Positions 5,076 to 31,919 of a DNA stretch of 41,833 nucleotides are shown here, piece by piece (position 1 is the stretch's first letter; every line of letters begins with the position of its first letter). The stretch is from Saprospiraceae bacterium (GTDB lineage Bacteria > Bacteroidota > Bacteroidia > Chitinophagales > Saprospiraceae): positions 1 to 41,833 of the forward strand of contig JANTGI010000010.1 of the NCBI GenBank assembly GCA_024762995.1. Reading direction: 5' to 3'. The position numbers were made by a program, and so were the translations under genes. The notes beneath the pieces are model-generated. The model did not search any database and was not told the DNA's origin. It worked only from the letters and a program-made list of their open reading frames with translations.

Positions 5076-6017
5076 ATGTCACGCATTCCACTGATTTTGC
5101 TGATTTTTATTCCTTATTGGCTGGCAGCACAGGTGACTGATTCTATTGCTTCGCGTGTCGTTTTGGATACGGAGGTGGTGGTTGCTGCCAAGAAAGGGTT
5201 CGATATCAAAAAGTTTATTGAGATTGTACAGGCGGATAGCGTTTTTGCGCAAGCCTTTCACCGACTGCGGAGTGTACCCTATCAAAGTAGCAATGAGTTT
5301 CACTTTTTTTCCCGAAAGGGGCGAGAAGTAGCCGGTTACAAAAGTGAAATCATCCAAAAAAAAGTGGATAGCTTGTGCATGGTAATGACCATCCTTTCGG
5401 AAAAAGCGACCGGAAATTATTACAAGCGCAAGGGCAAACACCGCTACTATACGGCCAAAATGTTTGAACGACTTTTTTATAAAAAAGGAAAACATTGCCC
5501 CAAACCAAAGCCCGTGACTCCTCCCCAACATACCCGTATGGAAAATTATGTCCAACAACTAAAAAAACTAATCTATAATCCCGGCAAAGAGGTAAAAATC
5601 CCCTTGATAGGACACAAAACAGCTATTTTTGATGAGAAAATGATTAAATACTATGACTTCAAAATCCAATCTAGACGCTATAAAGATGAGACGCCTTGCT
5701 ACGTTTTTACAGCCATCGCCAAGCCCAACCGACCCAACAAAACCGTCATCAAGTACTTGGAAATGTGGCTCGACAAAGCCGAATTAGGCATTATCTCCAA
5801 AAAATATCACCTAAAAACCACCAATCTTGCCTTCAATTTTGATATAAAAATGGATGTGGACTTGATCGAAACACCTTTGGGTATCTTACCTTCCAAGATT
5901 GATTATGACGGCAGTTGGAAAGCACCCATGAAGCGAAAAGAAATATCGAAGTTCCTGCTCCTATTTAATTTCGACTCCGGAGCAATTTTGGAGCCAAAAC
6001 TTAAATCTGATAATTAA
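5076..6017 (+). CDS. Secreted protein of unknown function
   Basis: A 313-residue protein with a clear Sec signal peptide (MSRIPLILLIFIPYWLAAQ), so it is exported to the periplasm or outer envelope. The middle is strongly basic (KKGKHCPKPKP near 140). The last 120 residues look like alternating beta strands (YVFTAIAKPN, KYLEMWLDKAELGIISKKYHLK), which recalls LolA/LolB-like lipoprotein-binding folds; that is only a resemblance. No sorting tail or catalytic motif is seen. It lies 97 bp after the transporter and 33 bp before the rRNA methyltransferase. I do not recognise a named family. Confidence 0.75.
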   Translation: MSRIPLILLIFIPYWLAAQVTDSIASRVVLDTEVVVAAKKGFDIKKFIEIVQADSVFAQAFHRLRSVPYQSSNEFHFFSRKGREVAGYKSEIIQKKVDSLCMVMTILSEKATGNYYKRKGKHRYYTAKMFERLFYKKGKHCPKPKPVTPPQHTRMENYVQQLKKLIYNPGKEVKIPLIGHKTAIFDEKMIKYYDFKIQSRRYKDETPCYVFTAIAKPNRPNKTVIKYLEMWLDKAELGIISKKYHLKTTNLAFNFDIKMDVDLIETPLGILPSKIDYDGSWKAPMKRKEISKFLLLFNFDSGAILEPKLKSDN

Positions 6018-10065: not shown

Positions 10066-11712
10066 TTAGAATTTATGTTTTTTCTTACGCTTTCCTTTCA
10101 TGTTTTCAGCCATTTTTAGGGCTTTATAGACATTAACAGTTGCCCCGGTCTTACAAAGGCTACTAAAGGGGACCAACTCGTCAGTACCGGGTTTTTTCAC
10201 GCTGTAATTTTGCTTAGGTCCTGACATCTCAATGATGTATTTCAATTGCTCAGCGGATAAGTCAGGATAGTAAGACAACAACAAGGCAGAAGCACCCGCC
10301 GCCGCAGGAGAAGCCATACTTGTACCGGAAGCATCGCCATATCCGTTATCCGGAGTAGTAGAGTAAATCGCCACACCGGGCGCAAAAATATCTACATTTT
10401 TAACACCATAATTGGAGAACGTGGCTACAGCATCTTCATTTTTCTTATAAGACAATGCTCCAATCTCCATCCATGTCGCACAAGTCTTAGCTCCAAGTCC
10501 TAAAAAGCCGTGTTTTTCATATACATCCGTAGGAAAATTATTGCCCATATCATTATTAGAAGCATCATTACCGGCGGCATGCACCAATAATACACCGTGT
10601 TTTTTAGCATATTTCACTGCTTTATCCACCACATCTTTGTTCCAGCTATAACTCTTTCCAAAGCTCATATTGATGATTTGCGCACCATTGTCCACTGCAT
10701 AGCGGATACCATTAGCGACATCCTTGTCTCTTTCATCACCATCCGGCACGACTCTAACGCCCATGATTTTCACATTATTGGCGACTCCTTTAATACCGAT
10801 ATTATTGGAGCGATTGGCAGCGATAATACCGGCGACATGAGTGCCATGAAAAGCATCCGGGCCCTTGATATCATTGTTACCATAATACTTTTCAGAAAAA
10901 TTATCATAGTTGTCTCCGACGATACTTCTCGGATTAAAATCCGGATTATAGTGATATTTGTATTGTGAAGTATAGTAATCCAAGCCACCCTGAATCTGTT
11001 CGAAGATGTCTTTTTTAATCTCATCCACACTAGTTGCGCCTTCTTCCATGGAGCGACGCGCAATGTTGACAGCCATCGCCAAACTCGGGTCATCGGCGGT
11101 ATTCACCTTTGCCAAGTTCTCCTCTGTCAAAGGGGCACCATCCATTGCCGCAGCCAAAGCATCTAAGGCTTTTCCCAGACGATCTTTGGTGCTTTTCATT
11201 TGCTCTAGCCCTTGTTTCGCTTTTTCTCTTTTATCGGTCACTTCCTCCTTAATGGCCAGGTAGCGGTCATATTCCTTTCTTTCTTTCTTAGATAAAGCTG
11301 CCGGATTGGCATTTTTATACTTTTTGTCGTACTTCACAAACAGTCTAGTCACTTCCAACTGATCCGGTCCTACATTTTTTCCATCTTTACCACCGATAAA
11401 ATTCCACCCATAGACATCATCCACATAACCATTATGGTCATCATCAATACCATTGCCGGCAATCTCTCCCGGATTGTGCCACATGACATCTTTCAAATCT
11501 TCATGATAAGGATCCACTCCCCCGTCAATCACCGCCACCACGACAGTTTTTGAATTTTTCCCTTTAAGTAATTCAGCGTAAGCTCTTTCCGAGCTCATCC
11601 CATTAATTCCGTCTTTTTCAAGATCTAAATTAAACCAATTTTTAGGACCTTTTTGGGCATGCATCGTCCCAAAGCCCAATAGCATTAATAATGCAAGCAA
11701 TCTTATTTTCAT
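10066..11712 (-). CDS. Secreted subtilisin-like serine peptidase (S8)
   Basis: A 548-residue protein with a Sec signal peptide (MKIRLLALLMLLGFGTMHAQ). The catalytic triad is complete: Asp in VAVIDGGVDPYHEDL near 64, His in FHGTHVAGIIAAN near 289, Ser in GTSMASPAAAG near 462, with the oxyanion Asn in HAAGND near 378. The spacing between Asp and His is exceptionally long, about 225 residues. It is filled by a lysine/glutamate-rich, probably coiled-coil insert (YDRYLAIKEEVTDKREKAK) and a Tyr/Asn-rich stretch. There is no T9SS sorting tail; the C-terminus ends in a basic run (KGKRKKKHKF). The likely site is periplasm or outer surface and the substrate is unknown. A terminator follows at 10003-10035. 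Confidence 0.92.
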   Translation of the reverse strand: MKIRLLALLMLLGFGTMHAQKGPKNWFNLDLEKDGINGMSSERAYAELLKGKNSKTVVVAVIDGGVDPYHEDLKDVMWHNPGEIAGNGIDDDHNGYVDDVYGWNFIGGKDGKNVGPDQLEVTRLFVKYDKKYKNANPAALSKKERKEYDRYLAIKEEVTDKREKAKQGLEQMKSTKDRLGKALDALAAAMDGAPLTEENLAKVNTADDPSLAMAVNIARRSMEEGATSVDEIKKDIFEQIQGGLDYYTSQYKYHYNPDFNPRSIVGDNYDNFSEKYYGNNDIKGPDAFHGTHVAGIIAANRSNNIGIKGVANNVKIMGVRVVPDGDERDKDVANGIRYAVDNGAQIINMSFGKSYSWNKDVVDKAVKYAKKHGVLLVHAAGNDASNNDMGNNFPTDVYEKHGFLGLGAKTCATWMEIGALSYKKNEDAVATFSNYGVKNVDIFAPGVAIYSTTPDNGYGDASGTSMASPAAAGASALLLSYYPDLSAEQLKYIIEMSGPKQNYSVKKPGTDELVPFSSLCKTGATVNVYKALKMAENMKGKRKKKHKF

Positions 11713-11948: not shown

Positions 11949-12112
11949 CTAAAGTATCCGCAAATTTCATAAGAAAATCGCTGATTCCCTAATAAAAGAT
12001 GCTTTTCTTTTGATAAAGTTGCCTTTTCCTACCATTTTGGAGATATTTTGCTTTTTGGGGCCGCACAAACTACCCAATTTTAGGTAATTATCCGATTATT
12101 ATCTAGTCACAA

Positions 12113-12143
12113 TTGAAAAAAAAACTAATCCCCCTTACTTTTG
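12113..12143 (+). promoter_or_regulatory. Promoter of small RNA candidate
   Basis: A TTG at 12113-12115 is followed after 20 bases by TACTTTTG at 12136-12143, a strong match to the Bacteroidota -33/-7 promoter. No coding frame follows; the transcript would end at the terminator at 12225-12254. Confidence 0.65.
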
Positions 12144-12147
12144 TGGG

Positions 12148-12254
12148 AAGCACAAGCCAATACACCCTGATATTGATTGGTAAAAAAGTATAATTTTCGA
12201 GTGAAAGTTTGTTTTGAAGTGAGTGGCCATTGGGAATACCAATGGCCTTTTTTT
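12148..12254 (+). ncRNA. Candidate small non-coding RNA (about 105 nt)
   Basis: The stretch lies between a good promoter (12113-12143) and a strong terminator (12225-12254), in a gap between two leftward genes. Nothing in it resembles a plausible protein on the plus strand. A possible upstream hairpin pairs CCAAT near 12168 with ATTGG near 12176-12180. It does not match 4.5S RNA (no GGAAGCAG loop), tmRNA, RNase P RNA or 6S RNA by length and motif. The exact 5' end is inferred from the -7 box. The function is unknown. Confidence 0.55.
12225..12254 (+). terminator. Strong rightward intrinsic terminator
   Basis: GGCCATTGG (12225-12233) and CCAATGGCC (12239-12247) form a perfect 9-bp stem around GAATA, followed directly by seven T. 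It is the best rho-independent terminator in the window, and no annotated rightward gene precedes it. Confidence 0.85.
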
Positions 12255-12302: not shown

Positions 12303-12989
12303 TCAAGAAGGAATCTTTTCAAAACCATTTCTCACTAAAAAATAAAAGGCCAAGGCCAAAAATTTCTTTTCTTCATCGGGCGACATTTCCGAAAGGAGTT
12401 CAAAGGCTCTAGGATTAACTTTTTTGGCTTTTTTGGTATCACCGATACTTCCGACATCTCTCCCTTCTACAGACATGGGATAATAATCATTATTTTTCAG
12501 TCGAGTAATCTTGGCTAAAACCTTTTTCTTTTCAGAAATCAAGGCATAATCCGGAGTAATTCCCCCAAAATACTTGCCGTTTAAGGCCACTTCCACTCGA
12601 TTATTTTTGATGCGATACAAATACTCATGGTGCGAGGTCATGACGACCAAAATGGCATTTTCTTTTTTGCCCAAATAGCGCTTATAGCCAAACATAACCA
12701 TCGGCTCTTGATAGATGGTCACAAAAGTCCCCTCGGCGGATTTCACACTACCGGTTTTCTCTTTGTAAGGGTTTCTTTTTAGCGAAAGCAGCCCCCTGTC
12801 TTCATCACTCCAAGGCACTAATTCTGCTCGCTTGTTGCTCAATTCTGCTTGTATTTTTCGAAAGTCCGCTTGCACCTTGGCTTTGCCGGGATTCAGGTTC
12901 GAGAAACCATGGAACACCGTGCGTGCACCCATAGCACCACTACTGGCCAAAGCAAAAAAAACAATGAGAATAAGGAAAATTGTCCCCAT
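12303..12989 (-). CDS. Membrane-anchored protein of unknown function
   Basis: A 228-residue protein starting with a single hydrophobic segment (GTIFLILIVFFALASSGAMGA), either a signal anchor or an uncleaved signal. The mature part is basic and beta-rich, for example TIYQEPMVMFGYKRYLGKK and YLYRIKNNRVEVALNGKYFGGITPDYALISEKKK. This layout of strands with a NGKYFGG turn is reminiscent of the tubby-like/scramblase (LURP-one) fold, but that is a weak visual comparison. A short helical C-terminus (SPDEEKKFLALAFYFLVRNGF) follows. A minus-strand TATATTTG box lies about 60 bp upstream. No operon partner; it is divergent from ftsK. The function is unknown. Confidence 0.7.
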   Translation of the reverse strand: MGTIFLILIVFFALASSGAMGARTVFHGFSNLNPGKAKVQADFRKIQAELSNKRAELVPWSDEDRGLLSLKRNPYKEKTGSVKSAEGTFVTIYQEPMVMFGYKRYLGKKENAILVVMTSHHEYLYRIKNNRVEVALNGKYFGGITPDYALISEKKKVLAKITRLKNNDYYPMSVEGRDVGSIGDTKKAKKVNPRAFELLSEMSPDEEKKFLALAFYFLVRNGFEKIPS

Positions 12990-31361: not shown

Positions 31362-31919
31362 TTATTTTTTCCATTTAATATTACAGCCCATACTCGGCCA
31401 TTGATCGGCAGGTGCCTTTTTGTGCTGCAACAAAGCATCCAAGGCTTCTCTTAAATCTTTTCCGGTAACGGGATGACCATTGCCGGGTGTAGCATTGTCC
31501 ATTCGCCCGCGATAATACAATCGGACATCCCCGTCAAATACATAAAAATCAGGCGTGCAAGCCGCATCATAGGCTTTCGCAATGTCTTGTGACTCATCAT
31601 AAAGATAGGGAAAAGTAAAGCCTTCTTTTTGCGCAAGCGCTTTCATCAAATCCGACGAATCTTGCGGATAATTTTCGACATCATTGGCACTAATCGCCAC
31701 AAAACCAATACCTTTTTCTTGATATTCTTTGGCGAGCTTTAACAGCTCGGGTAAGACCAAAATGACATAAGGACAGTGATTACAAATAAACATCACCACG
31801 GTACCCGAAGGTCGGACGACATCATTCAAAGACACCATCTTCCCCGAAATCGTATCCGGTAAGGAAAAATCAGGTGCCGGAGTGCCTAAAGGCAGCATAT
31901 TGGACAAAGTTTCTGACAT
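31362..31919 (-). CDS. Redoxin/thioredoxin-family protein (AhpC/TSA-like)
   Basis: A 185-residue thioredoxin-fold protein of the peroxiredoxin/redoxin type. It opens LPLGTPAPDFSLPDTISGK and has the active-site region FICNHCPYVI near 45 (CxxC). GIGFVAISANDVENYPQDS and the cis-proline in CTPDFYVFD follow. No signal peptide. It likely acts as a cytoplasmic thiol reductase or peroxidase; the CNHC pair makes a reductase as likely as a classic peroxiredoxin. A MITE-like element (31933-32007) begins 14 bp upstream of the start, so its promoter may lie in or beyond that element. Confidence 0.88.
   Translation of the reverse strand: MSETLSNMLPLGTPAPDFSLPDTISGKMVSLNDVVRPSGTVVMFICNHCPYVILVLPELLKLAKEYQEKGIGFVAISANDVENYPQDSSDLMKALAQKEGFTFPYLYDESQDIAKAYDAACTPDFYVFDGDVRLYYRGRMDNATPGNGHPVTGKDLREALDALLQHKKAPADQWPSMGCNIKWKK

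Follow-up and report, generated by a model that had tools for sequence, protein, structure and literature searches.

The window, the whole 41,833-nt stretch of DNA that was analysed and whose contig belongs to the 3.7-Mb genome of a Saprospiraceae bacterium (G000), almost certainly contains an RNA gene of about 107 nt. It very probably encodes a previously undescribed regulatory small RNA. The preferred reading, with a probability of roughly 0.6, is a stand-alone gene for an activator-controlled, Hfq-independent small RNA that acts in trans and has a pairing region at its 3' end. The gene lies between two leftward genes, an S8 peptidase (10066-11712; PF00082) on the left and a 228-aa ORF (12303-12989) without Pfam match on the right. 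The elements of the locus, compared among the five genomes of the genus (G000 to G004), are as follows:

12071..12086, plus strand: 16-bp palindrome TACCCAATTTTAGGTA, consensus TACC-N8-GGTA, probable activator site, present in all five congeners.
12106..12123, plus strand: conserved GTCACA-n-TTGAAAAAAAA, including the TTG of the −33 region; kept in G000, G001 and G002, mostly in G004, not in G003.
12113-12115, plus strand: TTG of the promoter (−33 region), followed by 20 bases and the −7 box.
12136..12143, plus strand: −7 box TACTTTTG, Bacteroidota consensus TAnnTTTG, kept in all five genomes.
12148..12254, plus strand: predicted small RNA of about 107 nt, its start placed from the box position at −12 to −5.
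12148..12191, plus strand: variable 5' part, with individual hairpins in each genome.
12192..12209, plus strand: small hairpin AATTTTC-GAGT-GAAAGTT, nearly invariant and, since it never varies, without covariation support.
12210..12224, plus strand: linker TGTTTTGAAGTGAGT, candidate pairing region, identical in all five genomes.
12225..12254, plus strand: intrinsic terminator, −16.3 kcal/mol; nine pairs, six of them changed on both sides, with 100% of cells paired.

An earlier note on this DNA had proposed a compact small RNA gene, with a promoter followed about 110 bp later by a terminator, and every point of it that could be checked proved correct. The promoter, TTG-N20-TACTTTTG, spans 12113-12143, and the terminator ends 111 bases past the −7 box with no rightward gene in between. 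In Bacteroidota, the sigma-A −7 consensus TAnnTTTG sits at −12 to −5 (PMC9723704), which places the RNA start near 12148 and gives the predicted transcript its length. The terminator stem, GGCCATTGG-GAATA-CCAATGGCC, covers 12225-12247 and is followed by seven T up to 12254. Its folding energy is the lowest among T-tract hairpins on both strands of the window, the runner-up reaching −14.8 kcal/mol, in agreement with the claim that this is the strongest terminator present. Due to the location of the T tract, which flanks the stem in the plus direction only, the stem is not the terminator of a leftward gene, and neither neighbour explains it, as had also been argued. A generic sigma-70 scan, being built on the E. 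coli consensus, does not list the promoter; the top plus-strand match of the scan (12167-12194) is situated within the RNA and is not conserved. The note had named no standard RNA as a match, and indeed no Rfam match in the window reaches the gathering threshold. Weak matches at relaxed thresholds were judged to be chance, and a phage origin was rejected, with no match in viral contigs.

Comparison with related genomes (DNA search, 60 relatives) revealed the locus in all five members of the genus but not in the other genera tested; three relatives sharing the 3' block are recorded as Saprospiraceae MAGs. The gene is single-copy, with one instance per genus genome and none in about 390 other genomes of the family. 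A covariance model of the 3' half (R1) gave one match of 77-93 bits in each genus genome, and in 248 family genomes it found outside the genus only weak matches of at most 36 bits, which on reading have little in common beyond a terminator. A 23-base pattern with 3 mismatches, applied to 398 family genomes, yielded five matches outside the genus, a number not above the reversed control, and all five represent unrelated sequence without a terminator. Judged at this search sensitivity, the gene is restricted to the genus.

Sequence conservation is missing from the 5' half of the RNA and peaks at the 3' end. The 3' half, AATTTTCGAGTGAAAGTTTGTTTTGAAGTGAGTG, is identical in the four syntenic genomes, which are distant from each other, with an identity of only 30-36% at fourfold-degenerate sites of the adjoining S8 gene; in G003 it shows a substitution and a deletion. 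The sequence of the terminator stem varies, but its pairing is kept in every genome. A lack of conservation of the stem or the promoter among relatives had been named in the earlier note as evidence against an RNA gene; both are conserved, the stem with compensatory changes, and the conservation of promoter, stem and 34-nt 3' block in five congeners supports, at the level of sequence, the small RNA gene that the note had proposed. The S8 peptidase gene is the left neighbour in G000, G001, G002 and G004, and the right neighbours of these four differ where readable. In G003 the copy is relocated and both neighbours are different, unrelated genes. Here the unit is intact, consisting of palindrome, 49 bp, TATTTTTG, variable part, 3' block and terminator, from which it follows that the co-kept unit runs from the palindrome to the terminator. 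The RNA gene is independent of its neighbouring genes.

In view of these data, the idea that promoter and terminator adjoin by chance and lack a function has practically no standing. Single boxes are common, with 27 TAnnTTTG on the plus strand of the window, but the combination of TTG-N19..21-TAnnTTTG with a hairpin of −12 kcal/mol or lower within 170 nt is present a single time in the window and never in 200 shuffles that preserve dinucleotides, and the conservation is far above that of neutral sites. The proximity of the S8 peptidase gene in four of the five genomes could also suggest a cis element in the promoter region of this divergent gene, the transcript being a by-product or a local regulator. 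This is improbable, since operator, promoter and 3' block are intact between the unrelated genes of G003 and conservation is strongest at the RNA end that points away from the S8 gene. Translation of a short peptide from GTG or TTG (VKVCFEVS...) would agree with a 53-aa plus-strand ORF, which starts from TTG and overlaps the 3' block. However, no ATG was found in the RNA, no frame is conserved beyond the block, and identity extends to every base, third positions included. Moreover, the only shared reading frame is broken in G003 by a 1-base deletion, with loss of the GTG codon. Such a peptide is thus very improbable, and the absence of an ATG in combination with the broken frame indicates that selection acts on the RNA.

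For the preferred reading, a trans-acting regulatory RNA, the following mechanism is proposed. A dimeric transcription activator would bind TACC-N8-GGTA at about −69 and, together with sigma-A RNA polymerase at TTG-N20-TACTTTTG, would start the transcript of about 107 nt, which would end at the terminator. The working part would be the 3' third of the RNA, formed by the small hairpin, the invariant 15-nt linker and the terminator, and the linker UGUUUUGAAGUGAGU would most likely base-pair with mRNAs without the aid of Hfq. Small RNAs of this type usually act by pairing with mRNAs, and the same role is considered moderately probable here. Structure predictions gave a mixed picture of linker accessibility, in that the linker is not clearly single-stranded and, in the G003 prediction, pairs with the 5' part of the same RNA. 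Hfq (PF17209) is absent from G000 in a search that matched its controls, and the Bacteroides small RNA GibS pairs with mRNA targets without Hfq (PMC7366714). Searching the five genomes for complements of the linker, with patterns of up to 3 mismatches, revealed no site common to orthologous genes, and complements of the 3' block were at most slightly commoner than reversed-pattern controls. Four similar target matches (L075, L144-L146) were rejected, as they occupy unrelated positions or lie antisense to a coding region. No consistent signal emerged from duplex energies with the leader of the S8 gene or with the cohesin-gene leader and second RNA described below.

The main rival to base-pairing is a protein-binding role, according to which the invariant 3' block would not be a seed but the site of an RNA-binding protein, with the RNA acting as a decoy or as a 6S-like regulator of a protein. 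The length of the invariant stretch, about 34 nt including the hairpin, exceeds that of most seeds and is consistent with such a role, as is the outcome of the search for shared targets. Like the locus, 6S RNA (RF00013) is a small stand-alone RNA gene with its own promoter. However, the locus is shorter and without the long interrupted hairpin, and 6S RNA was rejected as a candidate, with no RF00013 match in the window or the whole genome. The alternative structure predicted for the linker in G003 also argues against a conserved protein site, and a protein-binding role is regarded as rather unlikely.

The palindrome in front of the promoter was missing from the earlier note and begins about 40 bp before the first coordinate given there. 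In all five genus genomes, including the relocated copy of G003, TACC-N8-GGTA is located exactly 49 bp before the −7 box, a fixed distance that positions its centre about 69 bp ahead of the inferred start. Thirty relatives were screened for TACC-N8-GGTA with a TAnnTTTG box 20 to 50 bp behind it, and the family accounted for 92 matches. The spacing was 22 bp in 29 and 23 bp in 8 of these, 37 of 92 versus 6 expected, corresponding to a binomial P of ~2e-20, which overstates the independence of the sites because orthologous promoters were counted separately. Lower numbers, which likewise include orthologous copies of the same promoter, were observed at spacings of 38 (6 matches) and 49 bp (7 matches). 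In other families of the order, a spacing of 22-23 bp was found in 8 of 34 matches (P ~0.001). When searched with a short extension and without the promoter spacing, the palindrome was not clearly enriched over the control; it is the spacing analysis, not the extension search, that makes the enrichment convincing. Judged by this spacing, the palindrome is a position-specific promoter element. The 49 bp at the locus differ from the 22-23 bp of the main class. Given a box at −12, the palindrome centre falls near −42 when the spacing is 22 bp and near −69 when it is 49 bp. Positions near −42 and −69 are used by activators, adjoining or upstream of the polymerase, and we infer activation rather than repression. 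Presumably, TACC-N8-GGTA would fit the 7-2-7 inverted heptamers bound by regulators of the NarL/FixJ type.

Promoters with the 22-23 bp spacing precede at least one other small RNA family as well as genes for secreted proteins. All five genus genomes possess a further operator promoter of similar sequence with a spacing of 22 bp (G000:C1:94057 in G000), which precedes a related secreted protein in G000-G003, the four that were read. In G000, this protein (L255:579-1352 on G000:C1) displays both a cohesin and a type IX sorting domain. Related secreted-protein genes are found in L256, L257 and L258, and in all four genomes a leader of about 130-195 nt lies between the 22-bp operator promoter and the gene. 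In two loci from other families of the order (L225 and L230), the palindrome with a spacing of 22-23 bp precedes lipoprotein genes, whose products resemble each other (YNFxNVSYSGQTxRLDM). This location in front of lipoprotein genes outside the family suggests that the regulator of the palindrome may be older than the family. A further operator-linked stretch of about 120 nt (L269; G013:C99, promoter 31849-31894) is without an ORF and ends in GTGAGTTGGTGATGCGACTCAC-T7.

In G000, G002 and G004, a 22-bp operator promoter is followed by an unannotated candidate RNA of about 200 nt (G000:C24:5961-6204, L062/L100, promoter 5961-6006; G002:C212, L054/L101; G004:C256, L063/L102). Its 3' end consists of AATCGGTTTTTGGGATGGCCTCTC-loop-GGGGGGC-T7. 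Among 60 sampled relatives, this 3' block turned up in 21 genera, all belonging to the family, and a class-wide sample likewise gave strong matches in family members only; no match to Rfam was obtained. The block frequently occurs in at least two copies, one further copy in G000 being G000:C96:14614-14675, and three more genera (L109, L114, L119) show the block, or a sequence close to it, behind an operator promoter with a spacing of 22-23 bp. Other copies are situated behind the stop codons of genes whose products have a type IX-like sorting tail (...KKMIIIE), in most cases no more than about 45 nt away, and lack a promoter box of their own. This second family (AAATCGGTTTTTGGGATGGCC-terminator) shares with the locus a variable 5' part, an invariant stretch directly before a terminator opening with GCC, and a promoter composed of the TACC-N8-GGTA operator and TAnnTTTG. 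In contrast to the locus, it has another sequence, is family-wide, is often present in at least two copies, also forms the 3' end of protein-gene transcripts, and shows a spacing of 22-23 instead of 49 bp.

Two described cases from Bacteroidota resemble the locus in their general features. GibS of Bacteroides thetaiotaomicron (PMC7366714) is likewise an intergenic small RNA conserved in one genus; it contains a highly conserved stretch, and its lineage has no obvious Hfq. However, its seed is situated in the 5' part and its targets are known, whereas the locus is conserved at the 3' end beside the terminator. Rfp18 and other independent transcripts of Flavobacterium psychrophilum (PMC9723704) are short, without coding potential and conserved in the genus; for Rfp18, protease mRNAs are predicted as targets and expression was measured, whereas the locus is known from sequence alone.

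Stand-alone regulatory small RNAs are a known kind, among which this gene is new, and no paper on small RNAs of Saprospiraceae was found in the open-access literature. The finding stands out from routine cases by the extreme conservation of the 3' end, by the relocated but intact unit of one genome, and by an operator that connects the gene with a wider set of small RNAs and secreted proteins. The locus offers a Saprospiraceae small RNA whose ends are inferred, whose regulatory site is defined and whose conservation is extreme, and this makes its regulation and presumed targets directly testable. Moreover, its operator led to a second, family-wide candidate family of small RNAs and to a promoter-linked palindrome common to secreted-protein genes. 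Tentatively, this may reflect a family-wide circuit of the Saprospiraceae, in which one activator recognising TACC-N8-GGTA would drive several small RNAs in which an invariant stretch adjoins the terminator, together with genes for secreted type IX-sorted proteins, and in which the 3' stretches would represent a new working part of Hfq-independent small RNAs.
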